This document shows positions 18,602-42,411 of a DNA stretch of 64,000 nucleotides, piece after piece. The number at the start of each line of letters is the position of its first letter. The stretch's first letter is position 1. This DNA is from Marmoricola sp. (lineage in GTDB: Bacteria; Actinomycetota; Actinomycetes; Propionibacteriales; Nocardioidaceae). The translations under genes and the position numbers were made by a program. The notes under the pieces are model-generated. The model saw only the letters and a list, made by a program, of their open reading frames with translations, did not search any database and was not told where the DNA came from. The stretch lies in the NCBI GenBank assembly GCA_025965315.1, contig JAOPXD010000159.1, positions 1-64,000 of the forward strand, in the 5' to 3' direction.

Positions 18602-18662
18602 CGGGCGCACCTCTTCTGAGTGATTCCGGGATGAGTGGCGAATATTGGCACGATATTAGAAT

Positions 18663-19658: not shown

Positions 19659-21103
19659 CGGGTCGCTCGCTTGCGTCGTACCGGCGCCACGGCGACGACT
19701 TCTGCGAAGCCCTCCGCCATCGCTTGCTCGAGCACCTCGAGGTCGACGAAGACGTCAGGATCGACGTTGAGCCCCAAGCAGCAGGTTCCGTCGTAGGTGA
19801 TCATCGCGACCATCAGGGCGACCCCGGGTCGCGGGCCGAGCGGGAAGGTGCGGAGCACGCGGACCCCTGCCAGCTCGACCGGCGCGGCCAGGCCCCTGAT
19901 GTTGGAGACCTGCACGTCCGATGCCGAGGTCAGACTGGCCGACAGCTCGATGATCGCCGCGTTGGGCAGCTTCGTCAGGATCGGCGACAGGTGATCGAGA
20001 AACCCGATCGCAGGTTCCTCGCGAGCGCTTGCCACCAGCGTACGCACCTGTTGCATGCGTGCGCTCGGGTCGAGCTCGGCTACCGGCCCCGACAAGCGCA
20101 CCCCGGCGAACCGGTTGCCTCCCATCGGGTCGCCGGCCCGGCGCAAGCTCACGGGCATGCCGAAAGGCACCGCGTCCACGTGCGTTCCGTGAAACTCGTG
20201 GTAGCGCCGGACACCGCCGAGAACTGCGGCGACGAACGCGTCGTTGACCGAGCATCCGGCTGTGGTCGCCGCGGCCCGGAGATCGGCGAGCGGGACCTCC
20301 AGGGTGAGGAACCGCTTTCCCGATCCTGACCCGGCGAGCAGCGGCGAACCCTGTGCGGCTGGGGGCGTCAGAACGCGCACCAGCGACTGGCTGAAGCGCG
20401 ACGCCCTGCTTGCCGAGCCGATCGGGTCGGACGCGACCCTTCCGAGGACTCCCAGGACGGATCCCGCACCACGCAGGAGCTGTACCGGCGCACCGCGTAC
20501 CGAGTCGACGACCCGGTCTCGCGTCAGCGAGTCTCCGGTGATGCTGGGTCGCGAGGAGTCGGCGCGTCCGGGCTCGAGCCGCGAAGGGTCGAGCGGACCG
20601 TGCACGATCTCGAGGAGCTGGATCAGGCCGACCCCGTCAGTCAGGCTGTGGTGGAACTTCAGCACGTACGCCGACCGGCCCTCGGGGAGACCCGTGACCA
20701 GGACTGCCGCCCACGGAGGCCGGGCCGGGTCGAGAGGAAGCGCCAGCTCCTTCTCGCACAGATCGAGCAGATCACGGTGGGCGACATCGGCAACGTCGGC
20801 CGGCGCGAGGTCGATCTGCTCGAGGTGCTGGTCCAGGTCGAAGTTCAGGTCCTCGGTCCACACGGGTTGGCCGATCGCGATCCTCGGCACCACGACACGG
20901 TCACGAAGCCGGGGCACCACGCGGACGGTTTCCTCGTGCAGCGCACGGAAGCGGTGCCAGTCAGGGGTCCCGTCCAGCATCTCCAGGAGGATCCCGGTCG
21001 AGCTTGTTCGCGCATCGCCCTCCGCACGCCACATCAAGCCCTCCCACGCACTCATCTCCGCGGTGCCGCCCCACGTCGTCGTACTGCCCGTCTGGTCGCT
21101 CAT
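19655..21103 (-). CDS. Wax ester synthase / diacylglycerol acyltransferase (WS/DGAT)
   Basis: 482 residues. The family motif HHSLTDG (residues 151-157) carries catalytic His152 and Asp156. Further landmarks are NDAFVAAVLGG, PVSLRRAGDPMGGNRF and VSNIRG. WS/DGAT proteins esterify acyl-CoA to diacylglycerol or fatty alcohol to make storage lipid and work at the membrane/lipid-body surface. It is first in a two-gene operon with the hydrolase and divergent from the HAD-PlsC and PlsB-like genes, forming a lipid-assembly group. An operator pair lies in the shared promoter. Confidence 0.9.
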   Translation of the reverse strand: MSDQTGSTTTWGGTAEMSAWEGLMWRAEGDARTSSTGILLEMLDGTPDWHRFRALHEETVRVVPRLRDRVVVPRIAIGQPVWTEDLNFDLDQHLEQIDLAPADVADVAHRDLLDLCEKELALPLDPARPPWAAVLVTGLPEGRSAYVLKFHHSLTDGVGLIQLLEIVHGPLDPSRLEPGRADSSRPSITGDSLTRDRVVDSVRGAPVQLLRGAGSVLGVLGRVASDPIGSASRASRFSQSLVRVLTPPAAQGSPLLAGSGSGKRFLTLEVPLADLRAAATTAGCSVNDAFVAAVLGGVRRYHEFHGTHVDAVPFGMPVSLRRAGDPMGGNRFAGVRLSGPVAELDPSARMQQVRTLVASAREEPAIGFLDHLSPILTKLPNAAIIELSASLTSASDVQVSNIRGLAAPVELAGVRVLRTFPLGPRPGVALMVAMITYDGTCCLGLNVDPDVFVDLEVLEQAMAEGFAEVVAVAPVRRKRATR

Positions 21104-21141
21104 CGCACCTGTACCTCACCCGAAGCCTTGCTCGATGTTCC

Positions 21142-21166
21142 GGTCTGATATATAAATGATTAGACC
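21142..21166. promoter_or_regulatory. GGTCnGACC-type operator, copies 6a and 6b
   Basis: GGTCTGAT (21142-21149) and ATTAGACC (21159-21166) are inverted 8-bp arms with one mismatch and a 9-nt AT-rich spacer. They lie between divergent starts at 21103 and 21203, arranged much like the pair at 13555-13580. Confidence 0.58.
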
Positions 21167-21202
21167 AATGTACCTCAGGTCGACTGCTGCACGGAAGGTC
21201 AC

Positions 21203-22681
21203 ATGGACATCGAGGACCTACTGCTCTCGATCGAGGAGGCGCCTCCGGGGCCACGCGTCGGCGCGTTCTTCGATTTCGACGGCACCCTGATCGACGGCTA
21301 CTCAGCGACAGCGCTCTACGCGCACCGCCTGAAGAAACACGAGATCAGCCTCGGTGAAGCCATCCGAACCGTGCGGGCAGGAATGGGCGGCACGCTCGAC
21401 GAGACGCAGTTCGCGGTGCTGCTGACCGAGGGCATCTCGGGCTGGGCGGGCCGGCCCGTCGACGAGCTCGACGAGCTGGGCAAGGACCTGTACCGGACCG
21501 ACATCAGTGGTCGGCTGGTCCACGACATGTGGCGGGTGGTCAAGGCACACCAACGTCGCGGTCACACCGTCGCCATCGCGTCCTCAGCCACTCGCTTCCA
21601 GGTGGATTCGCTCGCCAACGACCTGGGCATCGATCACGTCCTCTGCACGCAGCTGGAGTCGCACCGCGGAAAGCTCACCGGCAGGCTCCTCGGACGCCCC
21701 CTCTGGGGACCGGGGAAGCTCGCTGCGGTCGAGAAGTTCATCGACGAAAGGACTCTCGACTCCTCGATGTCCTTCGCCTACGCCAACGGGGACGAGGACC
21801 CACCGTTCCTCGAGACCGTCGGCCATCCGCACGCCGTGAATCCTCAGCCAGAGCTTGCTGCAATCGCGCAGGACCGGGATTGGCCCGTCATCCTGACCAC
21901 GCGCCGACCGCACCCTCTGGACCCTGCTCCCGCCCTGCGGACGGCAGCCATGTACGGCGCGATGGCGGGCGCAGGGGTCTCCGGGATCGTGCTCGGACTC
22001 GTCGGCGGAAGCAAGCGTGCGGGGATAGACCTCGCGACCTCCTCCTTCGCGCAGGTCGCCGGGGTCCTCGGCGGAATCCGGGTGCAGGTGACCGGCGAGG
22101 AGAACGTGTGGTCCCAGCGTCCTGCCGTGTTCATGATCAACCACCAGAGCGCGCTGGTGGACGCCCTGGTGACGTCGACGGTGCTCCGCAGCGGGTTCAC
22201 GGCGGTGGCGAAGAAGGAGGCGGCTTCGGTGCCGGTCCTCGGTCCGATGCTGAGACTCGCGGACTTCGCGTTCATCGATCGGACCGACCCGGCCCAGTCG
22301 CGGACCATGCTCGACGAAGCCGTGTCACGGCTGGCATCAGGCACGTCGATCGTGATCTCGCCGGAAGGTACGCGCTCCTACACCCCGGCGATCGGACCGT
22401 TCAAGAAGGGCGGTTTCCACCTGGCCATGCGGGCAGGGGTGCCGATCGTGCCCATCGTGATCAGGAACGCCGGTGCGCTGATGGCGCGCACCTCCCGCAC
22501 CGCCCGAACCGGCACGGTCGAGGTGCGTGTCCTGGAACCGATCAGCACGAGCACGTGGACCAGGCGCGATCTCGACCGCTGCGCCACCTCCCTGCACGCG
22601 CGCTACCGCGACATCCTCGAGAACTGGCCTGGCGATGTGTCCGAGTCACCAGAACCGACCGTGGGGAGCGTCCGGACATGA
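21203..22681 (+). CDS. HAD phosphatase-PlsC acyltransferase fusion
   Basis: 492 residues with two domains. Residues about 20-225 form a SerB-type HAD hydrolase: FFDFDGTLIDG, then SSATRF, then GDEDPPFLETVG. Residues about 290-470 form a PlsC 1-acylglycerol-3-phosphate acyltransferase: NHQSALVD (HX4D) and SPEGTRS. A hydrophobic stretch near 250-270 probably anchors the linker. Actinobacterial fusions of this type are known and are thought to act in phospholipid or triacylglycerol synthesis, one half acylating and the other dephosphorylating. GGAAGG precedes the ATG. It overlaps the PlsB-like gene by 4 nt. Confidence 0.9.
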   Translation: MDIEDLLLSIEEAPPGPRVGAFFDFDGTLIDGYSATALYAHRLKKHEISLGEAIRTVRAGMGGTLDETQFAVLLTEGISGWAGRPVDELDELGKDLYRTDISGRLVHDMWRVVKAHQRRGHTVAIASSATRFQVDSLANDLGIDHVLCTQLESHRGKLTGRLLGRPLWGPGKLAAVEKFIDERTLDSSMSFAYANGDEDPPFLETVGHPHAVNPQPELAAIAQDRDWPVILTTRRPHPLDPAPALRTAAMYGAMAGAGVSGIVLGLVGGSKRAGIDLATSSFAQVAGVLGGIRVQVTGEENVWSQRPAVFMINHQSALVDALVTSTVLRSGFTAVAKKEAASVPVLGPMLRLADFAFIDRTDPAQSRTMLDEAVSRLASGTSIVISPEGTRSYTPAIGPFKKGGFHLAMRAGVPIVPIVIRNAGALMARTSRTARTGTVEVRVLEPISTSTWTRRDLDRCATSLHARYRDILENWPGDVSESPEPTVGSVRT

Positions 22682-24486
22682 CCCGGCAGCCGCTGACGTC
22701 GGACGCCCGCGAGGTGAGCCAGCTCCTGGCGTCTCCGGACTTCACCTCCGGGCTGGACGCGATCGCGACCAGGCTCGGCCGGGCGCCCGCGGAGGTCCGG
22801 GAAGAGGCCAGCGCCCACCTCCGGGAGCTCTCGGCTACGCACAACGACCGGGTGACCGCCGGGTGGCAGCGCGTCGGCCGTTGGATGCTGCGCGGATTTG
22901 ATCGGCTCACCGACGAGGAGAGCATGCTTGCTCTTCGCGCACTCGACCACGAGCACTCCCTGATCTTCCTGATCTCCCACCGTTCCTACCTCGACGAGTG
23001 GGCAGTGCCGCCCGTGGTGGCGGACTTCGGGATCGCGGCACCGTTCGGCCTGGCAGGCGCGAACCTGGACTTCTTCCCGCTGGGAACGATCGCGCGTCGT
23101 ACCGGCATCATCCACATCCGCCGATCAACGGCCGACATGCCGGTGTACAAGTTCGCGCTGCGCTCGTTCATGGGCCAGCTCGTCACCAACCGCTCGAACC
23201 TGATCTGGTCGATCGAGGGCGGGCGCACCCGGACCGGGAAGCTCCGCCCGCCTCGACTCGGACTCCTCCGCTACGTCATCGATGCTCTCGACGGCATCGA
23301 GGAGAGCAAAGAGGTGTACCTCGTCCCCGTGTCGATCCAGTACGACCAGCTTCCGAGTCACGAGGTCGAGCTGATGGCCTCCGAGGCGCGCGGCAACGGC
23401 AAGACACCGGAGAACGCCCGCTGGTTCTTCGACTACCTGTTGGGCCTTCGCAAGCGGATCGGGCGGATCTACGTCGACTTCGGCGAGCCCCTTCCCCTCC
23501 GATCGCGCCTGGCGGACCTCCACGCCGAAGACCCTGCAGGCACCCACTCGGTGGAACGGGTCGCTCTGGAGCTGTGTCACCGGATCAACCTCGCGACACC
23601 CGTGACACCGACAGCGATCGTGTGCGGGGCCCTGCTCCCCTCCGATCGTGCGCTGACCCTGGACCAGGTCCTGGAGACCGTGACGCCGCTCGCCACCTAC
23701 TTGGAGCGTCGCGGCTGGCCTACCGCTGGGGCCGCGACCCTCAATGACCGGGGCACGATCCGCCGAGCCCTGCAGGACCTCGTCAGCTCAGGGGTCGTCA
23801 CCAGCTTCGCCGGCAAGACCACGGTCTGGCGGATCGCACCCGAGCAGCACCTGATCGCATCGGTGTACCGGAACAGCGCGATCCACACGCTCGTTCCCCG
23901 GGCGATCGCCGAGGTCGTCCTCAGCGCCGTCGAGGAGACGACGGACGGGACGACCGACGCCTGGGCTCTTGCCCTGCGCCTGCGCGAGCTGCTCAAGTTC
24001 GAGTTCTTCTTCGCGAGCCGCAGCCAGTTCGCGACCGAGCTGCAGAAGGAGCTCGAGCTCGTGACGCCGGTCGCGGACGTGGCTTCTCGTGATCTCACCA
24101 GCAGCCAGGCCCAGGCCTACCTGGACGGCATGGACCTGCTGGTGGCGCCCCTGGTGCTGCGACCGTTCCTCGATGCCTACGCCGTCGTCGCGGACCAGCT
24201 GCTCGAGCTCGGCACCTCCAGCAACTTCGAGGAGGAGCGCTTCATGGAGCGGTGCCTGCAGCTCGGCGAGCAGTGGGCTCTTCAGAAGACCATCGGTAGC
24301 GCCGAATCTGCGTCGGCGGAGATGTTCCGCACCGCGCTCCGGCTCGCCCGGTACCGCGGGATCGTCGACGTACCGGCTCCCGATCTCCTCGCTCGCCGCC
24401 AGGCGTTCGTGGACGACGTCGACGCCGCACGCAGACAGATCGGCCGCGTGTCCAGGCGTGCGAGGCGACCTGCCTCCGCCACCTAG
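22678..24486 (+). CDS. plsB: Glycerol-3-phosphate acyltransferase, PlsB-like
   Basis: 602-residue acyltransferase of the PlsB class. The acyltransferase motifs are SHRSYLDEW (HX4D), GTIARRTGIIHIRR, SIEGGRTRTGKLRPPRLG and VPVSIQYDQ. It is shorter than E. coli PlsB (about 800 residues), mainly at the N-terminus. The first step of glycerolipid synthesis (acylation of glycerol-3-phosphate) would feed the PlsC domain encoded just upstream and the WS/DGAT encoded divergently. The ATG shares bases with the previous stop (ATGA). Confidence 0.87.
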   Translation: MTRQPLTSDAREVSQLLASPDFTSGLDAIATRLGRAPAEVREEASAHLRELSATHNDRVTAGWQRVGRWMLRGFDRLTDEESMLALRALDHEHSLIFLISHRSYLDEWAVPPVVADFGIAAPFGLAGANLDFFPLGTIARRTGIIHIRRSTADMPVYKFALRSFMGQLVTNRSNLIWSIEGGRTRTGKLRPPRLGLLRYVIDALDGIEESKEVYLVPVSIQYDQLPSHEVELMASEARGNGKTPENARWFFDYLLGLRKRIGRIYVDFGEPLPLRSRLADLHAEDPAGTHSVERVALELCHRINLATPVTPTAIVCGALLPSDRALTLDQVLETVTPLATYLERRGWPTAGAATLNDRGTIRRALQDLVSSGVVTSFAGKTTVWRIAPEQHLIASVYRNSAIHTLVPRAIAEVVLSAVEETTDGTTDAWALALRLRELLKFEFFFASRSQFATELQKELELVTPVADVASRDLTSSQAQAYLDGMDLLVAPLVLRPFLDAYAVVADQLLELGTSSNFEEERFMERCLQLGEQWALQKTIGSAESASAEMFRTALRLARYRGIVDVPAPDLLARRQAFVDDVDAARRQIGRVSRRARRPASAT

Positions 24487-24492
24487 GCCGGG

Positions 24493-25425
24493 TCAGCCGG
24501 GAATTGCCGGGAATTGCTTGTGCAGCAGGGCGCGCACCTCGGCGACTGCTTCGATCCCGAGGTGGGCCGACCCAGCCGCGGGAACGATGGTCAGGTGCCG
24601 CGCGCCGGCTTCGACGTACGGCGCGAACCATTCAGCGACGTCCTCGGGTGTCCCCGAGGTCGTGACGTGCTCGAACTTCTCGTACGGGAGGTTGTAGAGC
24701 GACTGCATCTGATCGGCGACCATCCGCCGTGCGGCTGTCGCGTCGGAGTCCAGGCCGCACCAAGCGCTGAGCCCGAACCACGTCGGAAGCGGGCGGCCGC
24801 GGTCAGCGGCAGCCGACAGGATCTCCTCGTGGGTCTGGGCGAAGCGACGCGACGAGCAGAAGATGCCCAGCCAGCCATCGCCGAATTCTGCGGTCCGGCG
24901 TACAGCCGCGGCACCACTACCCCCGATCACGAGTGGCACGATCGGGTCTGGCGACGGAAGGATCGATGCGCCCTCGAGGGTGAAGAACTCCCCCGAGTGA
25001 TCCACTGTCTCACCTGTCGCCAGCCGACGCAGGAGGCCGAGGGACTCGTCGAGGCGCCGACCGCGCGTCGACGGATCCACTCCGGAGTTCGTGACCTCGG
25101 ATCGGTCCTCGCCGCCGACCCCGACCCCGAGGACGAGGCGCCCGGGCGCGATCTGCGAGATCGACGACAGCTGTCGAGCTGCGAGCACCGGGTGCCGCAA
25201 CGCCAGCTGGTAGACCCCGACCAGGACGTTGGTCTCGTCGTGGGTCGCGAGCACCGCCGTCGCCGCCACGAGGCCGTCGAAGCCCGTTCCACCGTGAAAG
25301 CTGACGTGGTCGCCCACGGTCACGTGATCGAGTCCGGCGTCGTGGGCGTGCTGGAGGAGGTGACGCCGCGCGGAGGGGTCCGCTGTCATCAGGCTGTCGT
25401 GGACCGAGACACCGACGGCGATCAC
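24493..25425 (-). CDS. LLM-class (luciferase-like) flavin or F420-dependent oxidoreductase
   Basis: 310-residue TIM-barrel protein of the bacterial-luciferase superfamily: AGLDHVTVGDHVSFHGG near the N-terminus, ISQIAPGRLVLGVGVGGED, VPLVIGGSGAAAVRRTAEFGDGWLG. The style is that of actinobacterial F420-dependent enzymes, but FMN cannot be excluded. The start is GTG overlapping the stop of the acyl-CoA dehydrogenase (GTGA). It is the second gene in that operon. It could oxidise or reduce a ring or side-chain carbonyl; the substrate is unknown. Confidence 0.85.
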   Translation of the reverse strand: MIAVGVSVHDSLMTADPSARRHLLQHAHDAGLDHVTVGDHVSFHGGTGFDGLVAATAVLATHDETNVLVGVYQLALRHPVLAARQLSSISQIAPGRLVLGVGVGGEDRSEVTNSGVDPSTRGRRLDESLGLLRRLATGETVDHSGEFFTLEGASILPSPDPIVPLVIGGSGAAAVRRTAEFGDGWLGIFCSSRRFAQTHEEILSAAADRGRPLPTWFGLSAWCGLDSDATAARRMVADQMQSLYNLPYEKFEHVTTSGTPEDVAEWFAPYVEAGARHLTIVPAAGSAHLGIEAVAEVRALLHKQFPAIPG

Positions 25426-26576
25426 AGGGCCGCGACCTTCCCCATCATCGTGGTCGCGATGATCCGCTTCTGGATGCCGGCAGTGCCGTCGGCGATCAAG
25501 TAGCTCATCACGTCCCGGTGCCGCTGCTGGAGCGACATCTCGGTCGAGTAGCCCAGGTTCCCGAAGGTGACGATGGCTGTCTCGATGGCGTTCTTCGCGA
25601 CCAGCGGTGGCCACCACTTCGACATCGCCGCGTAGTGCGTGTGCTTCTCCCCAGCGGTCCGCGACCACAGCGACCGGTAGCAGAGCCACCTCGCTGCTTC
25701 CATGTACGTCGCGTGCTCGGCGAGCGGGAAGGAGACGCCCTGGAACGCAGCGATGGGGCGTCCGAACGCCTCGCGCTGCTGCGCCCAGGCAACGGCCTCG
25801 TCGACGCTGGCCTGCGCTGCACCGAGGCAGAGCAGACCAAGACCCGGGCGGCTGAAGTCGAAGTGCTCCATGGCACCGGCGAAGCCGCGACCCTGCTCGC
25901 CGACCAGGTGCTCGTCGGAGACGAAGACGTTCTCGAACACGAGCCCTCCCCAGCACAGCGGCAGTGCTCCCATCCCGGGAGTGTGCGAGCGGCTGACGCC
26001 TACGGCGTCCAGCGGTACGGCGAAGCAGCTGATCCCGGCGTAGCCGGTAGTACCGGGTTCGCGGGCGTAGACAAGAGCCACGGCTGCCGAGGTCGCATGC
26101 GTGATGGCGATCTTCTCCCCCGTGATCTCCCAGCCACCGACGACCTTGCGGGCCTCGGTCGTGAGGTTGGAGACATCCGACCCACCGATCGGCTCGGTGA
26201 CCGCGATGGCAGCGACGACCTCTCCGGCGATGAGCTTCGGCAACCACTCCTTGACGACCGACGGGTGGCCTTCGTGCGCGAGCTGCGCGGCAACCAGGCC
26301 GACCTGGACCGGTGCAGCGGCGACGTTCACGTCTCCGTACGCGAGCGCCTCGGTGGCGAGACCGAGGGTGACCGGGTCGGCGGACCCGGTGCCGCCGTAC
26401 TCCTCGGGAAGCCCGATACCGAGGACACCGAGATCCGCGAGCTGCCGGTGCGCCTCCCACGAGAACTCCGCCTTGGCGGAGCGCTCCTGGTACTTGGGCG
26501 CCAATTCGGCGATGGCGAACTTACGCAGCTGGGACCGGAAGTCCTCTTGCTCGTCGCTGAACGCGAACGAGATCAT
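25422..26576 (-). CDS. Acyl-CoA dehydrogenase with Asp at the EGTS-loop position
   Basis: 384 residues. FAD site: AVTEPIGGSDVSNLTTEA and KIAITHATSA; then AQQREAFGRPIAAFQGVSFPLAEHATYMEAARWL. The C-terminal loop reads LIADGTAGIQKRII: Asp363 replaces the catalytic Glu of medium-chain dehydrogenases. The helix-G segment (FSRPGLGLLCLGAA) has no Glu either. Enzymes acting on cyclohexane- and cyclohexenecarboxyl-CoA are reported to use an Asp base, though elsewhere in the fold. This is therefore a candidate ring dehydrogenase, feeding the BadK-like hydratase. It heads a two-gene operon behind an operator copy. Confidence 0.87.
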   Translation of the reverse strand: MISFAFSDEQEDFRSQLRKFAIAELAPKYQERSAKAEFSWEAHRQLADLGVLGIGLPEEYGGTGSADPVTLGLATEALAYGDVNVAAAPVQVGLVAAQLAHEGHPSVVKEWLPKLIAGEVVAAIAVTEPIGGSDVSNLTTEARKVVGGWEITGEKIAITHATSAAVALVYAREPGTTGYAGISCFAVPLDAVGVSRSHTPGMGALPLCWGGLVFENVFVSDEHLVGEQGRGFAGAMEHFDFSRPGLGLLCLGAAQASVDEAVAWAQQREAFGRPIAAFQGVSFPLAEHATYMEAARWLCYRSLWSRTAGEKHTHYAAMSKWWPPLVAKNAIETAIVTFGNLGYSTEMSLQQRHRDVMSYLIADGTAGIQKRIIATTMMGKVAAL

Positions 26577-26699: not shown

Positions 26700-27731
26700 A
26701 TGGCGGGGAGAACGGTGACCACTCGAGGCATCACAGTCCTGGCCGGTGGCATCACGGAAGCCCGGGAGACCGCGGCTGCCGCAGCGGAAGCCGGCTTCGA
26801 CATGGCGTGGTCGGGGGAGTTCCTCAACCGCTCGGCCGTGGTCACGGTGGCCGCCATGGCAGCAGCTGGTCACGGCATCGGCGTCGGCACAGCGATCGCC
26901 TACGCGGTCGGGAGATCTCCGCTCGTGCTTGCCAACGACGCCCGGTACCTCGACGAGCTGAGCGGCGGACGCTTCGTGCTCGGCCTCGGAACCGGGACCC
27001 GGACGATGATGACCCAGTGGCACGGCGTGCTCGACCCGGACGCCCCAGCCTTGCGGATGGAGGAGCTCGTTCCGCTGATCCGGCGGCTCTGGTCGCTCGA
27101 CAGGGGCAGGGTCCAGCACTCCGGCCGCTTCTACTCGCTCGACATCACGCCGACGGCCGAGATCGATGCTCCGTTGCGACGAGAGATCCCGATCTACACC
27201 GCAGGAGTCAATCCACGCATGATCGAGGTTGCCGGTCGGGTGTCGGAAGGCCTCATCTGCCATCCCACCGTGACACCCCGCTACCTCGAGTCCGTCGTGC
27301 AGCCCGCGCTTGCGCGTGGAGCCGCCAAGGCATCCGCTCCGCGCAGCCGCGCGCTCCTGTCCGGCGTCGTGATCTGCGCGATCGCGGACAGCACGATCAG
27401 TGCACGGCGCGAGGCTGCGGCTCAGATCGCCTTCTACGCCGCACCGAAGTCCTACGCCCCGGTGCTGGAAGCTTGTGGCTTCGGGAGCGAAGCTGCCGAG
27501 ATCCGCGCAGCGTTCCTGCGGGGAGACCACGAGGCGATGATCGACGCAGTCTCGGACCGGATGATCGACGAGATGGCGGTTGCGGGGACTCCTGCCGAGG
27601 TGCGCGAATCGTTCCCCGAGTTCGAGCGGCGCTACGACCACGTGTCGCTCTACTCACCGAGCTTCACCCTGTCACCCGAGCGGGTCTCCGAGAACACCGC
27701 TGCCATCGTGGAGACGTTCGCGCGCTCGTGA
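26700..27731 (+). CDS. LLM-class flavin or F420-dependent oxidoreductase
   Basis: 343 residues: TEARETAAAAAEAGFDMAWSGEFLNR, YLDELSGGRFVLGLGTGTRTM, then REIPIYTAGVNPRMIEVAGRVSEGLI. Clearly luciferase-like, and different from the LLM protein at 24493. The ATG at 26700 has no Shine-Dalgarno and would be nearly leaderless; GTG at 26715 has GGGGAG 4 nt upstream and is an alternative start. It is transcribed divergently from the acyl-CoA dehydrogenase/LLM operon across two operator copies, so both LLM enzymes are probably induced together. Confidence 0.85.
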   Translation: MAGRTVTTRGITVLAGGITEARETAAAAAEAGFDMAWSGEFLNRSAVVTVAAMAAAGHGIGVGTAIAYAVGRSPLVLANDARYLDELSGGRFVLGLGTGTRTMMTQWHGVLDPDAPALRMEELVPLIRRLWSLDRGRVQHSGRFYSLDITPTAEIDAPLRREIPIYTAGVNPRMIEVAGRVSEGLICHPTVTPRYLESVVQPALARGAAKASAPRSRALLSGVVICAIADSTISARREAAAQIAFYAAPKSYAPVLEACGFGSEAAEIRAAFLRGDHEAMIDAVSDRMIDEMAVAGTPAEVRESFPEFERRYDHVSLYSPSFTLSPERVSENTAAIVETFARS

Positions 27732-27739
27732 TGGCCGGG

Positions 27740-28630
27740 TCACGCCGGAGTGCTCAAGAACCCCGCTACCTGGGCCACCAGAGCGCGGCCCGCAGCCGCT
27801 GTCTCGGGCTGGTCCCAGAACCCGTGGATCTGGCCCTGGTAGCGGGTCGACACGATCGATGCTCCCTGCTCGGCAGCCAGACGCACGAGATGCTCGCCCT
27901 CGGCTCGCAACGGGTCGTGCTCCGCGGTCACGACGAGCGTCCTCGGCAGCGACCAGAGACCTGAGGCCCCCAGCGGCGCGATGTCCGGGTGACCGAGCTG
28001 GTCCTGGTCCGCGTACTGGGCCCAGTACCAGGCTGCTTCACGAAGTCCGTCTCCACCGAGCTCGGTCCGGTAGGAGTCGAAGCGAGCCGACGGGTCGAGG
28101 AACGGGCAGACGAGTACCAGGGCGCCGAACCGGGCGGGGTGCCGCAGCGCCGCGGTCAGCGCCAGGTTGGCACCGGCCCCGTCACCGTGGAGGAGGAGCG
28201 CGCCGCCAAGTCCGTGACTGCTACCGGACCGCTCGATCCAGTCGAGCACCGTCTCGAGGTCGTCCTGAGCCGCGGGGAAGCGGTGCTCGGGAGCCTGCCG
28301 GTAACCGACCGAGACCACCGCCAGCCCGCTCCGGTTCGCCAGCGCCCGGGCCAGCGGGTCCCGGACCTCGAGGTCGTGGAAGACGAACCCGGCGCCCTGG
28401 AGATCGAGGATCACCGCGCGCCGGTCGAACGACGGCACGAGCGGCCGGAACACGCGCACCGGGACGCCGTCGGCGTCCAGGTCGAGCACCTCGCCGACGG
28501 CCTCACGAGAGCGGATCGAGGCGAGCTCACGTGCCGTTCGTCGCGCAGCAGCGATGTCGAAGCCCTCGTCGTACACCTTCGTGCGGCCAGCTCGCTGCGA
28601 GACCAGGCGCCGTACGTCCGGGAACAGCAT
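27740..28630 (-). CDS. HSL-type esterase homologue lacking the nucleophile (probable pseudo-enzyme)
   Basis: 296 residues of the hormone-sensitive-lipase family. The fold signatures are clear (YRQAPEHRFPAAQDD, EHDPLRAEG with the acid, IHGFW with the His). The oxyanion motif HGGG is QGAG (78-81), and the nucleophile motif GDSAG is GDGAG (149-153), so the catalytic Ser is Gly; the codons read clearly as Gly. Loss in two separate motifs argues against a working esterase. It is the last gene of the mce operon, 12 nt after the PpiC-type gene. A binding or scaffold role is possible; this is inference. Confidence 0.85.
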   Translation of the reverse strand: MLFPDVRRLVSQRAGRTKVYDEGFDIAAARRTARELASIRSREAVGEVLDLDADGVPVRVFRPLVPSFDRRAVILDLQGAGFVFHDLEVRDPLARALANRSGLAVVSVGYRQAPEHRFPAAQDDLETVLDWIERSGSSHGLGGALLLHGDGAGANLALTAALRHPARFGALVLVCPFLDPSARFDSYRTELGGDGLREAAWYWAQYADQDQLGHPDIAPLGASGLWSLPRTLVVTAEHDPLRAEGEHLVRLAAEQGASIVSTRYQGQIHGFWDQPETAAAGRALVAQVAGFLSTPA

Positions 28631-28642
28631 GACCGGCCCGCG

Positions 28643-29677
28643 TCACTGACCGGTGACGGACTCTTGCCCGGTCATCGCGGGAACCTCGTCGGGCTTGGCC
28701 GGCTGGAACCTCTTCGCGTAGACGATGTGGGCATTCTTGATGACGGTGCCCAGCCAGGAGCGCCAAGCCTTGACGGACTGCTCACCGAGGAGCTCCTCCT
28801 TCAGGCTCGTCGATACGCCGGCGAGGGTGGCGACCACCGCGGGCACCACTTTCTCGACGACCCCGACGTTCCACCCGGACTTCGTCCGCACCGGACCGAA
28901 CGGTTGGCCTGGACTGGCCGCGAACGCAGCAGCCGCATACCCGGTCTCCAGCTGAGCACTGGCGAGCGTTCCGAGCACGCCGCCCTTCATCCGGGTCGCT
29001 TCGTCCAGGCTGAACTTCTTGGCCAGGGGTCCGAAGGCGCTGCCGCGCTGCAGCTTCTTCAGCAGCTGCCTTGCTGCTGGCAAGGTCGAGACGACGATGT
29101 TGCGGATCTGCCGTCGCTCTGGTGTGCCCAGCGAGGCACGGCGCTTCGTGAAAGCGGCATCGACCGCAGTGCTGGACACCGAGATCTTGTCGGTGACCAG
29201 GTCGAAGAGCCGAGCAATCAACATCTGCTCCTTGATCTCGGCGATGACCTGCGCCTCGGACGCACCCATGGTCCCGAGTGCCTGGATGAACGCTTGACGA
29301 CCACCATCGGGATAGCGCTGCTGGATCAACGCAGTCAGCGCGTCGGAAGCAGCCTTGTCGCTGATCACGATCCCGTGCTTGCGGGCCTGCTCGCCCAGAA
29401 GCTTCTCCACGGCGACCGACTTCGCCGAGTCCCGTCGGAACGAGTCGATCTTGGCGGCTCCAACGGGCTTCGCGATGCCGTACAGGGCCTGGAGGGACTT
29501 CATCCGCTCGTCGACCTGGGTCGCGGTGACCACAGTGCCACCGATCCGGAAGGCGGCGTCAGAGGGCAGGTCGTCGTGCCGGTGCACCAGGACGACGAGC
29601 CCGGTGGCGACGAGACCTGCCACGACCACGGATGCACCGAATGCGACGATCCGGCGGCGGGTGAGGTGAGGGAACAT
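28643..29677 (-). CDS. Membrane-anchored SurA/PpiC-type peptidyl-prolyl isomerase or foldase
   Basis: 344 residues. One N-terminal transmembrane helix (about 10-30) follows a basic start (MFPHLTRRR), then a SurA-like chaperone region with long helices, then a parvulin-like domain (ERRQIRNIVVSTLPAARQLLKK, FGPLAKKFSLDEATRMKGGVLG, GWNVGVVEKVVP). It should act outside the membrane on exported proteins. AGGAG lies 7 nt before the ATG, and 2 nt separate it from the MMPL gene. A foldase inside an mce operon suggests help in folding or assembling the Mce or MMPL extracytoplasmic domains. Confidence 0.8.
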   Translation of the reverse strand: MFPHLTRRRIVAFGASVVVAGLVATGLVVLVHRHDDLPSDAAFRIGGTVVTATQVDERMKSLQALYGIAKPVGAAKIDSFRRDSAKSVAVEKLLGEQARKHGIVISDKAASDALTALIQQRYPDGGRQAFIQALGTMGASEAQVIAEIKEQMLIARLFDLVTDKISVSSTAVDAAFTKRRASLGTPERRQIRNIVVSTLPAARQLLKKLQRGSAFGPLAKKFSLDEATRMKGGVLGTLASAQLETGYAAAAFAASPGQPFGPVRTKSGWNVGVVEKVVPAVVATLAGVSTSLKEELLGEQSVKAWRSWLGTVIKNAHIVYAKRFQPAKPDEVPAMTGQESVTGQ

Positions 29678-29679
29678 GA

Positions 29680-31923
29680 TCAGACTCCTACTTCTTCCAG
29701 GCTTCGAACTGCTTCCATCTCCACGGCCGGTTCTGTCGGAGGCCGTACGGGTCGCACCAGCTGGGCGACCGCTGTCGCGCTCAGCAGCGCAAGCGCAACA
29801 GCACCGACCAACGTCATGCCGAACTGACGGACGACCTCCAGCCCGGACAGCAGCAGGACCCCGTACCCAGCGACCGACAAGCTCGACGCCAGGTACACCG
29901 AACGGCGCAAGCTCTCGTCGCCGGTCCGTCTGGCGGTGACCAGCAGGACCGCGAATTCGCATCCGGCGGCCGCGGTCAACGGGCCCAGGGCCAACGTCAG
30001 CGGGTTCAGCGCCGTTCCGGTCAACCAGATCGTGAAGACCCCGAGACCGGTCGCAATCGCAGCCGACAGGAGCGCGAGCAACGCGTCCCGACGGCGACGA
30101 AGGGCAACGGCGAGGACCCCCGCAGCCGCGAGGACTCCCAGGATGTTCGCGGCGTACCGCGATGACGAGACGAGGTCGTAGCCTCGCGCAGCGGCGACGG
30201 GAAGGCCTGTCACGCTGGCCGTGTAACCGGGTGGTGCGGGCGGCAACCGGTGCTCGATGCCCGCGATGACATCGGTCTTGTCGTTGAGTGCTTGCCAGTC
30301 ACCGCCCAGCGAGATGACACCGCGGGTACGGTCGCTGGTCACCGCCGCACCACTGACGTACGACGGGAGAAGCTCCATCGCGGCATCGACCTGGCCAGGC
30401 GTCGGCGAGGTACCCAGGAACGAGAGCAGGTCGGTCGGGGAGACCAGCGGTCGCACCCGGTTGCCGTACTGCAGCACGATTCCGTTCTCCGCCTGGCGGA
30501 ACCAGGTCCGCCCTGCCGGGGACAGCACGTCCGGCCCGTGCAGGATCACGTCGACCTCGCCCGAGAAGCCCAGGACGTCCTCGACGTGGGTTGCCTGGTC
30601 GAATCCAGGCAGGCCGGCGATCAACCGTTGCGGATCGGTCTGGATCGGGATCTTCGGCAGCACCACCCATCCGATGCAGGCGAGCACGGCGAGCAGCGCG
30701 AACCCTGCCTTCCGGATCTCGCGCCGACCGGGCTTCGTCACCTCGACGTCCGGGTACCGCTGGGGCACCACGACCGGGTGCGGGCTGGCCGCAGGTGTCA
30801 CCACGAGACTGAGCACGAGGCTGACCAGGACCACGAAACCGATTCCCAGGGCGATGGCGGTTCCGAGGTCACGGACGAACGGGAGCGGCGAGAAGGTCAG
30901 GGTCGCGAACGCGGCTGCGGCCGCGCCAGCGACGGCCAGGACCAGACGGCGGTGCTCCCGCTGCGCGAGGTACACGGGGTAGTAGCTGCCCACGCCCAGG
31001 ATGACCGGCAGGAACGCGACGGCTCCCAATGACACCGGTGTCCCTCGCAGTCCGAAGGTCGCGAGGGTGAGCAGCGTCGCCAAGGTCATCGGAACCATCG
31101 GCGCGAGCCGGCGCGAACGACGGGTCCAGGGGAAGATCAGCAGCACCAGCGCCACCGCCGCGAGCGCGGCCAGGCCGAGCTTCGGGAGCTCCGAGCGTGC
31201 TGTGCTGCCCAGCTCTGCGGTCACTGCGGGCGCGCCCGTCACCGTGACCCGGCTGGCCCCCGTGTCGACCGAGCGAACCGCTCGTACGACGTTGTCGGTC
31301 AGCGCTTCGGCGGACTTCTGGTCGAGCCCGTTGCGCGGCCTGACGTAGATGACGACGGCGCGGTGGGACGGGACGAACTGCGACCACGAAGGTCGCACGA
31401 CCGTCCCGGCACCGTAGAGGACGCGAGCGACGAACGTGGGGTTGCGCAGCGTCGGAAGGCCGCCAGGAAGGCTGCGAACCACGAGGCTGCCGTAGCGCTC
31501 GTTGAAACTTTTGAGCTCAGCGGTCTTGCCGGCCTCGCTCAGCGCATCCCGCTCGCCGCTGAGGTTGGCGAGCATCTCCTTGATCCGCAGGACGGTCTGG
31601 TTCAGCGTGGTGGCCGGACCGTAGGTGACAGCCACGTCGGGCAGCGCGGCGAGAAGTCCCTCGAGGTGCAGCAGGTTCGGCAGGTGGTTCTCGTCGAGCA
31701 GCGAGTCCGCCTTCGTCGACTCGAGCATGACGACGACAGGGTCGCCTCCGAACGAGTTCGCCATCGTCTTCAGCGCCGTCACCGACGCGTCACTAGCCGG
31801 GAGGTAGGAGTCCACTCCCGAGCCCACCTGGAGCCGCGGCAACCCGACGCCTATCCAGGCCGCGGCGATCAGCATGAAGATCGCTACAGCCGTGAACCGG
31901 CGTCCGGGTCGCGCAGTTGTCAT
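29680..31923 (-). CDS. MMPL/RND-family membrane transporter
   Basis: 747 residues with the RND layout: an N-terminal helix (about 11-30), a large external domain (35-240), a cluster of helices (about 248-385), a second external domain (about 425-585) and five more helices to the C-terminus. The QVGSGVDSYLP segment resembles MMPL/hopanoid-type transporters. Proteins of this family export or move lipids using the proton gradient. The start overlaps the MceF stop by 4 nt, so it is a true member of the mce operon and probably works with the Mce complex. The direction of transport is not readable. Confidence 0.87.
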   Translation of the reverse strand: MTTARPGRRFTAVAIFMLIAAAWIGVGLPRLQVGSGVDSYLPASDASVTALKTMANSFGGDPVVVMLESTKADSLLDENHLPNLLHLEGLLAALPDVAVTYGPATTLNQTVLRIKEMLANLSGERDALSEAGKTAELKSFNERYGSLVVRSLPGGLPTLRNPTFVARVLYGAGTVVRPSWSQFVPSHRAVVIYVRPRNGLDQKSAEALTDNVVRAVRSVDTGASRVTVTGAPAVTAELGSTARSELPKLGLAALAAVALVLLIFPWTRRSRRLAPMVPMTLATLLTLATFGLRGTPVSLGAVAFLPVILGVGSYYPVYLAQREHRRLVLAVAGAAAAAFATLTFSPLPFVRDLGTAIALGIGFVVLVSLVLSLVVTPAASPHPVVVPQRYPDVEVTKPGRREIRKAGFALLAVLACIGWVVLPKIPIQTDPQRLIAGLPGFDQATHVEDVLGFSGEVDVILHGPDVLSPAGRTWFRQAENGIVLQYGNRVRPLVSPTDLLSFLGTSPTPGQVDAAMELLPSYVSGAAVTSDRTRGVISLGGDWQALNDKTDVIAGIEHRLPPAPPGYTASVTGLPVAAARGYDLVSSSRYAANILGVLAAAGVLAVALRRRRDALLALLSAAIATGLGVFTIWLTGTALNPLTLALGPLTAAAGCEFAVLLVTARRTGDESLRRSVYLASSLSVAGYGVLLLSGLEVVRQFGMTLVGAVALALLSATAVAQLVRPVRPPTEPAVEMEAVRSLEEVGV

Positions 31924-33230
31924 CGCGCGTCAGGCTCCACTCGCGGGTACTTGCCCTCGAACGGGCCAGGCGTGTTGCTGCCACCGGGCGCTGGGTAGGC
32001 GTTCGACTTGTCGAGGAACCCGGTGTTCAGCGGAAGCGGGACCGGGATCCCCTTGACACTTTGCTCGTTGACCACAGGGAAGATCCTCAGGTAGTGGCCG
32101 TTCGCATCGCTGTGCTGAAGCATCGCGGTCCAGTTGGTGAAGAACGCTGCGAGATCGGGACCGTACGGCTTGAGGAAGGCGACGACGGGGTTCACGTCGG
32201 AGAGGTTGATACGAGCGGTAGGAACCAGGTCGTCGAGAGCACCCGATGCACCAGGAACAGCCTTCAGGGTCGCCGGAGCCTTGACGAGGGTGCCGTTGAG
32301 CGCGGGCATCAGGCCACGCAACGACCTGGTGACAGCCGGAAGCTGGACCAGTGCCTCGTTCAGCGGACCTGCGGCCGATCGGAGGTTCTTGGCGATCGGG
32401 TCGAGAGCGGTGGACAGGGTCGAGAGGCTGCCGGTCGCAGAGCGCGCCTTGGTCACCAGGCCCGGCAGCCGCGAGATCGTCGCCTGAAGGTCCTTGTTGC
32501 TGGCCGCGGTTGCCCCGGTCAGGCGATTCGCACCGTCAGCGAGAGCGACGATCTGACCCTGGTGGGTGTCCATCGCCGAGACGATCTTCGCCGACTCGGC
32601 CACCATCGCCTTGAGGTCGGAGGACTGCGCAGCGAGTGCGTCGAGGGCGTCGTGCCCCTCGCCCCCCAACATCCCCAGACCCCGAACGGTCTGCGCGAGC
32701 TGTGCCTGAGTCATGTTCGTCCCAGCACTGAGGGACTGGAGCGAGTGCTGGAGCGCAACCCGGGTCGGCGCGTTGAGCGAGCGCAGGACCTGGTCGAGCT
32801 GCACGCTCGGCTTGATCGCGCTCGCGGGTAGCGCCGCGTTGTCCGCGATGGGAGCACCGTGGCCGTCGGTGATCTCGAGGTAGGTCTCCTCGATGAGCGT
32901 CTTGGCGCGCACGTGCACGACTGCCCCGGCGTGCAGCGGCGTCACCCCGGAGTCCTTGTTCAGCTGGATCACCACGTGGGCCATGCCGTCGCTCTCGGTG
33001 AGCTTGCGGACCTTTCCCACCCGCACCCCCGCGACCATGACGTCGGAGTCGTAGACCAGGTTGTCGACGTCCGGGACCTGCATCGAGACGCGGTAGCCGG
33101 TCTTGGACACCCCGGGAATGATCCCGCCCATGTTCGTCCAGAGGTACCCGAAGAAGAGCGCGCAGACGATGAAGAACACCATCAGGACACCCAGCCGTAG
33201 CCGCGGCATGGCGGCGTGCGGAATCTTCAT
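31920..33230 (-). CDS. mceF: Mce-family substrate-binding protein (MceF position)
   Basis: 436 residues: an N-terminal signal anchor (about 11-32), an MCE/MlaD domain (GYRVSMQVPDVDNLVYDSDVMVAGVRVGKV, about 45-120), a long helical region and the C-terminal motif DANGHYLRIFPVV. MCE proteins form a hexameric channel carrying lipids or hydrophobic molecules between outer layer and inner-membrane permease. QLDQVLRSLNAPTR after the MCE domain is shared by its paralogues here. The single Cys lies within the anchor without a lipobox. It ends in a 4-nt overlap with the MMPL gene. Confidence 0.9.
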   Translation of the reverse strand: MKIPHAAMPRLRLGVLMVFFIVCALFFGYLWTNMGGIIPGVSKTGYRVSMQVPDVDNLVYDSDVMVAGVRVGKVRKLTESDGMAHVVIQLNKDSGVTPLHAGAVVHVRAKTLIEETYLEITDGHGAPIADNAALPASAIKPSVQLDQVLRSLNAPTRVALQHSLQSLSAGTNMTQAQLAQTVRGLGMLGGEGHDALDALAAQSSDLKAMVAESAKIVSAMDTHQGQIVALADGANRLTGATAASNKDLQATISRLPGLVTKARSATGSLSTLSTALDPIAKNLRSAAGPLNEALVQLPAVTRSLRGLMPALNGTLVKAPATLKAVPGASGALDDLVPTARINLSDVNPVVAFLKPYGPDLAAFFTNWTAMLQHSDANGHYLRIFPVVNEQSVKGIPVPLPLNTGFLDKSNAYPAPGGSNTPGPFEGKYPRVEPDAR

Positions 33231-33231
33231 G

Positions 33232-34491
33232 TCAGTTGTCTCCCAACCCGGTCGGAAGCGTGGTGGTGTTGACCTGGATCTGGCCGCGGAGGATTCCGCC
33301 GTTCGCGTCCTGGAGGCTCACGAATGATGCTGTGTTCCAGATGAACGCCTGAAGGTCGTTGAGGGACCCGACGATCTGGGCAGTGGCACTGTCCAGACGA
33401 CCGGTGATCGCGCTCGCGTCCGCCAGCGATGCCGAGAGGTTGGCCGCGAACGGACGAAGATCGTCGGCAACGGGAACCAGGCCCCGCACCAGCGGTGCCG
33501 CGCTCGCGGCAGTCGTCTTGATCGCATCAGCGGTGGTGGAGAGTCGGCCCAGCGCCCCGGGCAGCGACGACGAGGCCGTGCGGACGTCGTCGAGCGTCGG
33601 GTTGAGCTGACCACCCAACGAACGCAGCTGGCCGGTAGCGCTCCCCAGCTCACGGCTGAGCCCGGGGAGGGTGGAGAGCGAGGCGCGCAGGTCGTCGTCG
33701 TGACTGGTGATGGTCGACAACGTCGAGTCCAGCGACGCCGTCAGGCGAGCCAGACGGGTGTCGTCGCCGCCAGCTGCCTGCGAGATGTCGCCCAGCTCGG
33801 TGACCAGGCGAGCGATCTTCGCTCGCCGCGTCTCCAGCGCGACCACCACCGGCTTGAGCTTCTTGGCCGTGGCGTCGGTGGCGTTCAGCGCGGACGGAAC
33901 ATCGGCCGGGGCAGATGCCAGCGCGTCGTCGGACTCATCGAGCAGCGACGTCAGGGCTACCCGGGTCCGGTCGTCCAGGTGCTGGAGGACCGCGTCGACC
34001 TCGACAGGATCGCTCGTCTGGCTCACCGGAAGCTCCTGGCCGGACCTGAGCTGCTTCGCAGGGGCGCTACCCTGGCTCATCTCGACGTACATGTCGTTGA
34101 GCGGCGTCTTCGGCCGCAGGACCAGGCGGGCGTTGCTGTAGACCTTGTAGCCGGGGTCCAGGGCAAGCGTCAGCCGGGCCAGTCCCGCATCGGTGACATC
34201 AGCCTTCGTGATGCGACCGACGGTGACCCCGGCGATCCTGACCTCCTGGCCGTTTCCGGGACTGATGCCCGGCACTTCCTTGAAGTCGGCGGCGAACACG
34301 AACTGGTTCTGCCACGGCCAGTGGACCCGCTGCTTGGCGAGGATCCCGCCGGCCGCGGTCAGGCCGAGGACCATGATCACGATGATGGCCGTGACGTCAC
34401 GGCCGAGTCCCGGCACCGTCCGGACGGTGTCCGCCAGACGTGCGACGCGGGAGCGAGAGCTCTTGGATGCGGAACTCGTGGGTGTGGTCAC
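33232..34491 (-). CDS. mceE: Mce-family substrate-binding protein (MceE position)
   Basis: 419 residues: cytoplasmic N-terminal tail of about 30, transmembrane anchor (about 33-52), MCE domain ([29 protein letters not shown]), [14 protein letters not shown], helical tail and terminal [13 protein letters not shown]. In mycobacterial operons the fifth Mce protein is usually a lipoprotein; this one has no Cys and no lipobox, so it must be held by its uncleaved anchor. The stop-to-start gap to MceF is 1 nt. Confidence 0.88.
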
Positions 34492-35798
34492 TTGGGGCCT
34501 CCCGGGTAGAGCAGCATCTTGAAGAGCTGCTCGAGACTGATGGGCAGGTCGCTGACCGAGCCCACGCCGAACCCTGGCTGGAAGTGGATGGTCGAACCGT
34601 TCCGGTCCGTCATCTTGCTGGCGTTGTCCATGCCGGCGATCATCGTTCCCAGCTCCTTATAGAACGGGGTGGTCGTGCTGCCGCTGCCGGCGTACTGACC
34701 GGTTCCTGTCCAGGGCGACAGCAACGTGTGGATGATCGGCCCGTTGACGCGCTCCAAGGGTGCTCCGTCGACATCGTGGAGAACCTTGGTGCCGACCCGG
34801 GCGGACGGAACCAGTGATTGCACCAACGGTCGCAGGTCCACCAGCGCCGGACGCAGGTCGTGCACCACCGGGCGTGCCTCGACCAGTGCGGGCTGCAACC
34901 GTGCGAGCAGGTGGTCGAGTCGTGTCGCGACCGGCTCGGCGCTCTTCGAGGTGGCCTTGAGGTGGTCGAGCGAGACACTTAGAGCCGCCAGTCCGGTCCG
35001 GGCGTTGCTCAACGCTTGAGGCATCAGCTTGATGGAGCTGCTGATGGCGTACTTCTGGTCGTCGAGGATCGCGCTGGTGCGGTCGAGTCCGTCGATGACC
35101 GCTGCGAGCTGCCCCTGCTTCGCCGTCAGCACCCGACCGATGTTGTCGAGGTTCGAGACGATCTTGCTCAGGTCCGTGTTCGGGTTGGTGCCGCGGAGCG
35201 CTTCAAGAACCGCACCCGCGGGTCGCAGCGTCCCGGGCGCATCCTTGAGAACCTGCCGGACGCTCGTCTGTCCCTTCGGCGTCAACGTGGAGTTGAGGTC
35301 GCGGACTGTTCGCTGTACCCCGACCCGTGCAGCCGGGTTGAGCGTCTCCAGGACGCGGTCCAGCTCGACCGGGATCGTGGTGCGGGAGTCAGGGATGACG
35401 CTGTGCAGCGTTCCGGGATCGCCGCCCGGGCGGAGGTCGACGTAGTAGTTGCCACCGAGAAGCGTGGTGGGGCGGATCGCCGCCATCGGGGACAGTCGCA
35501 GCTTGGTGCTGGTGCCGTCGTCGACCTTCATCGTGACCCGGGTGACACCCGAGGGATCGTGGTGCACGCCGGTGACGATGCCGACCGGGACCCCGGCGAT
35601 CTTGACCTTGGTCACGTACGGCCGCATCCGGTAGTCACGCTTGAAGTCGGCCTGGACCGCCTCGCCGCGGTGAAGAGTCGTCGAGATGCGTGCCTTCTGG
35701 AACAGCGACAGCGCCACGACGAGCGCGATCGTCAGGAGCACGACGCCGAGCTTGAAGCTCGATGCGCGCTCGAGGCGTCCTAGCAGCCCACCCTTCAT
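34488..35798 (-). CDS. mceD: Mce-family substrate-binding protein (MceD position)
   Basis: 436 residues: anchor helix (about 16-33), MCE domain ([40 protein letters not shown]), [14 protein letters not shown], then helical repeats and a divergent C-terminus ([20 protein letters not shown]). It contains no cysteine. Start and stop overlap MceC and MceE by 4 nt each. Assigned to the fourth position by order; sequence shows it to be the most divergent of the six at the C-terminus. Confidence 0.88.
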
Positions 35799-37072
35799 CG
35801 TCCGTTACCTCCGAGAATGGTCGTTGCACGTTCCTGCGAAGCCTTGCCAGGAGCGGGATAGGGGTCGCGGTGGACGAACGGGTCCCGGATTCCGAGAATC
35901 CCGTCCGCAGATTCAGGCCGCACCACGAGATCGATCCGGAGGTAGTGGCCGGACTTGTCGGAGGGACGGTTCGCGCTGTCCCAGTAGGTGAAGAACCGAG
36001 CGATCTCCGGTGCGTACGGCGCCAGCACTGCGGTAGGAGTCCGGGCTGAGTTGAGCAGTGCCTCGACCTCGGGGGACAACGGCCGCGCGTCAGCCAGCAG
36101 GTGCGTCAGGGACGTCACCGCAGGCGCCGCCGTCCTGGCAACGCCCGGGACCTTGTCCAACGGCGACACGACGTCGTCGAGCGTTCCTTCCAGGTTGGCT
36201 TCCGAGGCCCCCAAGGCGCGTGCGCCGGGGCTGAGCGTGCGCATCCCTGCCTGGAGGTCGGCCAGCGGACTACGCAGAGCGACCAGGGCACGGCGGGCCG
36301 AGCTCAGCGTCGCCGGTGCTTCGTCGAGGGTCTGGCCGATCGCTGACGCATCGGCGCCCTTGCCGCTGTCCAGCGCCGCGAGGGTGGTGCCGAGGTTCTT
36401 GGTCAGCTCTGCAACGGTCGCCGAGCGTCCGCGGAACCGGCTGGCAAGAGTATCGGTGTTGACGAGCAGGCCGGCGAGATTCGTCTGGGGTGCGGCGGCG
36501 GCACGAGACACGGTGCCGAGGTCCGGCAGGACCACGGGAGCCTGCGTCAGGAAGTCCTGCAGCGCCTGACTCTGTCCGTCGAGACCGCCACCCACCTGCT
36601 GGAGCAAGCCTCGGGTGGCATTCCGGGTCTTCGCGTCGAACGTATCGAGCACCTGGTCGAGCGCAGCCGGCGGCGTCGTGCGCGACTCGGTGATCATGTC
36701 GTTCGCAGTGATCTGACCGGTCCGGCGAGTGCCTTGGGTGAGCTCCACGAAGTTCTGACCGAGTGCCGATCGTGACGACACCTCGGCGGTCGCGTCGCGG
36801 TACACCTTCTGGTCCGGGTCGAGCTGCAGCTCAACGACAGCGCGGTCGCCCTTCAGCTCGATCGACCGGACCTGACCGATGCGAACGCTCGCTTCTCGCA
36901 CGTCGTCCCCGACGCGAAGGTCACCGACCGAGGAGAACGACGCATTGACGAAGGAGTGGCGCTGGCCCGGCAGGCCCGTCGACGCCGTCAGGGCGATGTA
37001 GACCGCACCTGCCAGTACGGCGAGCAGCCCGACCCCCACCCACATGGTTTTCGCAGTCGACGTCGTACTCAT
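35795..37072 (-). CDS. mceC: Mce-family substrate-binding protein (MceC position)
   Basis: 425 residues: anchor (about 9-30), MCE domain (FVNASFSSVGDLRVGDDVREASVRIGQVRSI), ALGQNFVELTQG, ALDQVLDTFDAKTR, helical region and C-terminal DKSGHYLRIDLVV. It contains no cysteine and no lipobox. Overlaps MceD by 4 nt. The aligned DxVLxxxDxxTR and GHYLR motifs show common descent with the other Mce proteins of this operon. Confidence 0.88.
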   Translation of the reverse strand: MSTTSTAKTMWVGVGLLAVLAGAVYIALTASTGLPGQRHSFVNASFSSVGDLRVGDDVREASVRIGQVRSIELKGDRAVVELQLDPDQKVYRDATAEVSSRSALGQNFVELTQGTRRTGQITANDMITESRTTPPAALDQVLDTFDAKTRNATRGLLQQVGGGLDGQSQALQDFLTQAPVVLPDLGTVSRAAAAPQTNLAGLLVNTDTLASRFRGRSATVAELTKNLGTTLAALDSGKGADASAIGQTLDEAPATLSSARRALVALRSPLADLQAGMRTLSPGARALGASEANLEGTLDDVVSPLDKVPGVARTAAPAVTSLTHLLADARPLSPEVEALLNSARTPTAVLAPYAPEIARFFTYWDSANRPSDKSGHYLRIDLVVRPESADGILGIRDPFVHRDPYPAPGKASQERATTILGGNGR

Positions 37073-37073
37073 G

Positions 37074-39685: not shown

Positions 39686-39686
39686 C

Positions 39687-41419: not shown

Positions 41420-41432
41420 GCGTCGTACGTCC

Positions 41433-42314: not shown

Positions 42315-42369
42315 GAATCGCTGCTCCTGTCCGCTGCGCAGTGCTCGATGAATGGGCGCTCGTTTTTCT

Positions 42370-42378
42370 GGTAGGACC
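42370..42378. promoter_or_regulatory. GGTCnGACC-type operator, copy 9, before the mce operon
   Basis: GGTAGGACC in the context TTCTGGTAGGACCAAACTC, 56 nt upstream of yrbEA. On the minus strand it reads TTTGGTCCTACC, sharing the TTTGGTC half with copies 1, 3 and 8. It ties the transporter to the same putative regulon. Confidence 0.5.
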
Positions 42379-42411
42379 AAACTCCTCTGTCCAGCCGTCT
42401 CGGGCATCCCC

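Follow-up and report, generated by a model that had tools for sequence, protein, structure and literature searches.

The window analysed here, i.e. the whole 64,000-bp stretch of a Marmoricola sp. contig, contains an mce operon whose last gene, which we call EST, encodes a protein of the hormone-sensitive lipase (HSL) fold with changed catalytic motifs. The gene and its operon are arranged as follows.

27740 to 28630, minus strand: EST, a 296-amino-acid Abhydrolase_3/HSL-fold protein with QGAG and GDGAG in place of HGGG and GDSAG, Asp239 and His269 being kept
28643 to 29680, minus strand: PPI, a SurA/PPIC-type peptidyl-prolyl isomerase (PPIase)-like gene, the usual end of this type of mce operon, 12 bp upstream of EST (start inferred; the longest open reading frame reaches 29962 and overlaps the mmpl gene)
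29680 to 31923, minus strand: an MMPL/RND-family transporter gene (mmpl)
31920 to 39763, minus strand: mceA to mceF, six Mce (MlaD-domain) genes
39687 to 40523, minus strand: an MlaF/Mkl-type ABC ATPase gene, inside the operon between yrbEB and mceA
40559 to 42407, minus strand: yrbEA and yrbEB, two YrbE/MlaE-type permease genes

The open reading frame (ORF) of EST starts with ATG and contains no internal stop, so the gene is intact, as the earlier note on this sequence had stated. The motifs read L-Q78-G-A80-G81-F, H-G-D150-G151-A-G, EHD239PL and IH269GFW, with the codons CAG for Q78, GCC for A80, GGG for G151, GAC for D239 and CAC for H269. The exchange of HGGG for QGAG and of GDSAG for GDGAG, which the note had reported, is thus confirmed by direct reading, and it stands out against the homologues: a Ser occupies the nucleophile elbow in each of the 73 homologues with a motif reading (58 aligned, 14 retrieved afterwards and the second copy in this genome), the 58 aligned sequences all have GDS[AS]G (46 of these being at least 48% identical), and HGGG is present in all close aligned homologues. 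The 46 close homologues have H76, H78, G80 and S151 without exception (100% conserved), and all four are changed at the active site of EST (H76D, H78Q, G80A, S151G), which is why we do not attribute the changes to chance. H76D removes a further invariant His, located two positions before the His of HGGG, and together with F194D and R273D it places polar or acidic residues at invariant positions. The catalytic Asp and His of the homologues align with D239 and H269, so that these two residues indeed remain. The note had also described both the oxyanion hole and the Ser as lost. The Ser is gone, but for the oxyanion hole this goes too far: it is altered, and the G-to-A exchange keeps a backbone NH.

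EST matches the Pfam family PF07859 (Abhydrolase_3) with 150.4 bits (cut-off 25) and the NCBIfam model LipP1 (NF058653) with 175.3 bits, which is far below the curated equivalog cut-off of 350. Its AlphaFold model (mean predicted local distance difference test score, pLDDT, 95; predicted template modelling score, pTM, 0.93) has HSL esterases as its top PDB matches, with template modelling (TM) scores of 0.83-0.91 in the first twelve. As regards the features of family IV esterases, the PF07859 match, the HSL-type fold, the Asp and the His are present; the Ser of GDSAG and the HGGG motif are missing. EST is an HSL family member by descent and fold, but it lacks two of the features that define an HSL esterase.

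The best full-length identity to EST among 342 genomes of the family Nocardioidaceae was 59%, and the pattern HGDGAG[A/G]N matched EST alone in this set. A GTDB-wide peptide-pattern scan gave no Gly-bearing orthologue and returned only two GDSAG relatives, one from the Propionibacteriales and one from an Actinomycetes metagenome-assembled genome. The orthologue alignment that the earlier note had proposed as a check on the conservation of the Gly therefore found no orthologue with Gly, and all homologues read have Ser. Phylogenetically, EST falls inside a 50-row clade of the family (support 98/98), within which it sits on a long branch and remains unplaced. The same clade holds the GDSAG esterases of the Nocardioidaceae (about 42-59% identity to EST), which, unlike EST, have HGGG and GDSAG and are encoded outside mce operons at another locus that is conserved in the genus and has no mce genes nearby (e.g. 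L008 in genome G020). The genome of the window carries this genus-type esterase as well, on contig C49 (L033, 10187-11052; 81% identical to L008), where the copy is interrupted by a frameshift in a G run, either a true loss or an error of the assembly. Grouping EST with the genus copies, i.e. an in-genus duplication, was not rejected (approximately unbiased test, p-AU 0.34), and EST as sister of its own C49 copy was not firmly rejected (p-AU 0.093). Transfer from outside the family was discarded as a candidate, because in a class-wide sample all matches to EST at E ≤ 1e-50 lie in the family of the window and none outside it. EST is thus a private, fast-diverged extra copy, either a paralogue or a gene transferred from a family member outside the sample, given the best identity of 59%, the lack of a match at E 1e-50 outside the family and a motif pattern that occurs only in the window.

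The gaps along yrbEA-yrbEB-ATPase-mceA to mceF-mmpl-PPI-EST are 13, 35, -77, -4, 1, -4, -4, 1, -4, -1 and 12 bp, the ATPase gene having been found in what was a 795-bp gap of the operon. The description of EST as the last gene of a tightly coupled operon is therefore right for this genome (gaps of -77 to 35 bp), and judging from this spacing EST is probably co-transcribed with the mce genes. The stretch 27600-29900 showed neither a terminator-like nor a sigma-70-like site, a weak test in a high-GC genome.

The claim that the gene is kept in the mce operon did not hold up. In a PPI-anchored search of 295 family genomes, with loci fetched with 1.5-kb flanks, the mce-MMPL-PPIase tail recurred in the Nocardioidaceae, but no orthologue of EST, with Gly or otherwise, was present behind the PPIase gene in any other tail examined; only one locus (L087) has a 26%-identical gene there, on the opposite strand. 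In three of the nearest relatives of the operon (L066-L068) this slot is occupied by a pair of short ORFs (about 72 and 130 amino acids) followed by an acyl-CoA synthetase gene. In these relatives the synthetase homologues follow the PPIase gene at a distance of about 0.8 kb, and about 9 kb separate the synthetase gene from EST in the window, where the synthetase is 52-58% identical to those of the relatives over the part seen. EST is accordingly located in a stretch that is not found between the two genes in the nearest relatives. We rejected EST as a conserved part of the operon, since mce-MMPL-PPI recurred and no EST orthologue followed it in any of the loci fetched; judging by gene order, EST is not a conserved mce-operon component. 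As evidence for a recent decay, the note had named GDSAG in close orthologues from syntenic operons. Syntenic orthologues do not exist in this set, and the non-syntenic homologues of the genus have GDSAG; the Ser loss may accordingly be recent or old.

Two further genes on the other side of EST complete the surroundings.

26700 to 27731, plus strand: a luciferase-like (F420/LLM class) oxidoreductase gene, convergent to EST, the two stops being 8 bp apart
16949 to 18610, minus strand: the acyl-CoA synthetase (AMP-binding) gene

Between EST and the synthetase gene lies a block of lipid-related genes (18696-26576: WS/DGAT, alpha/beta hydrolase, HAD-acyltransferase fusion, GPAT-like acyltransferase, luciferase-like oxidoreductase and acyl-CoA dehydrogenase). 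The same genome (4.1 Mb) contains 37 MlaD/Mce-domain matches on seven contigs (C42, C50, C102, C158, C191, C192 and C120), enough for about six mce operons. A SurA/PPIC-type PPIase gene, in the window PPI on the minus strand, follows the MMPL gene at mce operon ends across the family (L054-L089), and this recurrence suggests a real role of the isomerase in the Mce system. A phylogenomic paper of 2007 describes Mas proteins at mce operon ends and does not mention the isomerase (PMC1810536).

The pattern of substitutions bears on whether EST is a decaying gene or encodes a folded protein. Its GC content at third codon positions (GC3, 0.85) is like that of the neighbouring genes, and the differences to its nearest homologue are concentrated at third codon positions (0.28/0.28/0.49). 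EST departs from the majority at 18% of the columns that are at least 95% conserved, compared to 70% of the unconserved columns. It deviates at 20 of the 114 invariant columns, where close homologues deviate at 2 on average and at 11 at most; GDSAG homologues of similar divergence, however, deviate at 22 (L022) and 17 (L023). Since the ratio of conserved to variable changes is 0.32 for EST, 0.32 for L022 and 0.25 for L023, the overall constraint on EST appears about as tight as that on active relatives, and the difference consists in which residues changed: the catalytic motifs are altered in EST and in neither of the two others. When neutral drift to the divergence of EST was simulated from three starting genes, 3, 10 and 8 of 200 genes stayed open, indels not being counted. 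EST is not an obviously rotting pseudogene, and the constraint fits a folded protein that is not simply rotting; to this extent, and in its lost nucleophile and intact gene, the earlier note is supported.

We favour the reading that EST is a cytoplasmic binding pseudoenzyme, roles other than cargo binding included, and consider the chances evenly balanced. A copy of a family IV esterase that many Nocardioidaceae carry elsewhere with GDSAG would have joined the mce operon behind the PPIase gene. It has lost the Ser-based mechanism through S151G, H78Q, H76D and G80A, while its fold and the family-wide constraint were kept, as the conservation and the confident model suggest. Since no obvious signal peptide was detected in EST, the protein would be located at the inner, cytoplasmic side of the YrbE/ATPase importer, where its old substrate pocket might bind an acyl or sterol-type ester uncut and serve as cargo buffer, sensor or partner subunit. 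The presence of a separate active-type GDSAG copy at the genus-conserved locus of the same genome supports this reading, and the binding or regulatory role itself is what we infer. Several observations weigh against it. EST is known from one genome and has no full-length orthologue above 59% identity among the 342 family genomes, which leaves no comparison to reveal selection on the serine-less form; its branch length is 0.92 compared to a median of 0.21; and most of its constraint may predate the Ser loss. Moreover, the confidence of the model derives from aligned active relatives and is no test of the mutations, and the concentration of changes in motif columns (4 of 20 changes in 10 of 114 columns, P = 0.07) is not significant, which is why we do not claim it as a signal.

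The same observations can be read as early decay, in which an esterase, duplicated or transferred, ended up behind the mce genes without being required; having lost its active site, it would now be drifting, its ORF not yet broken. The single-genome distribution, the long branch, the lack of a conserved position in mce operons and the spread of the 20 changes at family-invariant columns over the whole protein would all follow from this, and if the frameshift in the C49 copy is real, loss of the esterase may be tolerated in this strain. However, the intact ORF, the normal GC3, the third-position bias and the amount of change at conserved columns, comparable to that of similarly divergent active homologues, speak against decay; a very recent loss would still fit, but four separate active-site substitutions argue against a very young one. 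Overall, we regard this explanation as unlikely. A change of chemistry appears improbable to us. Some alpha/beta-hydrolase-fold enzymes act without a nucleophilic serine, and in EST the pair His269-Asp239 could serve as general base in a rebuilt pocket (Q78, D76, A80, D194, D273) with a serine-independent activity of the lyase, isomerase, hydratase or dioxygenase type. The loss of the Ser and both motif histidines with the Asp and His retained would suit such an enzyme, as would the gain of polar and acidic residues at invariant positions, but these changes are common to no homologue, nothing points to selection, and retention of Asp and His over one lineage requires no function. That EST is an artefact, whether from a chimeric assembly joining PPI to EST or from wrong bases in the motifs, we hold to be highly improbable. 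The genome is a draft (217 contigs, 90.5% complete, 3.4% contamination) and EST has no counterpart elsewhere, yet the gene lies well inside a 76-kb contig with the same GC3 as the operon, and a sequencing slip is unlikely to have caused several independent codon changes, four of them in the active site, while leaving the reading frame intact.

To return to the binding pseudoenzyme, if EST binds the cargo of the operon, the protein would be a soluble tool for finding out what an actinobacterial Mce system takes up, a question that is usually hard to answer, and an example from bacteria of an esterase that became a receptor. As a relic, it would be no more than an ordinary dead copy. To date EST looks like one more catalytically dead relative of an enzyme, seen in a single genome. 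Among the papers searched, nothing specific on bacterial HSL pseudoenzymes was found. Compared with bacterial family IV/HSL-like esterases (PF07859; LipP1 NF058653; PDB 3wj1, SshEstI, and 4ypv, Est8), EST shares the family, the fold (TM about 0.9) and the Asp and His of the triad, but lacks the nucleophilic Ser and the His of HGGG. The gibberellin receptor GID1, a plant pseudoenzyme of the HSL family and a detectable sequence relative of EST (3ebl), is a precedent for a dead hydrolase with a binding role (PMC11060689). The most specific proposal, namely that EST is an HSL-fold cytoplasmic cargo receptor or handover protein of mce lipid import that would bind the imported lipid ester uncleaved, as a bacterial counterpart of the esterase-to-receptor route of GID1, is a long shot. 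GID1 is conserved across land plants and has a known ligand and partner, whereas EST is a singleton; in addition, the Ser is retained in GID1 and it is the His that is lost, opposite to the situation in EST. Neuroligins resemble EST in having an alpha/beta-hydrolase fold without the catalytic serine, and they fulfil a non-catalytic role in protein-protein interaction (PMC12931606); unlike EST, they are membrane adhesion proteins of the cholinesterase branch and restricted to animals.
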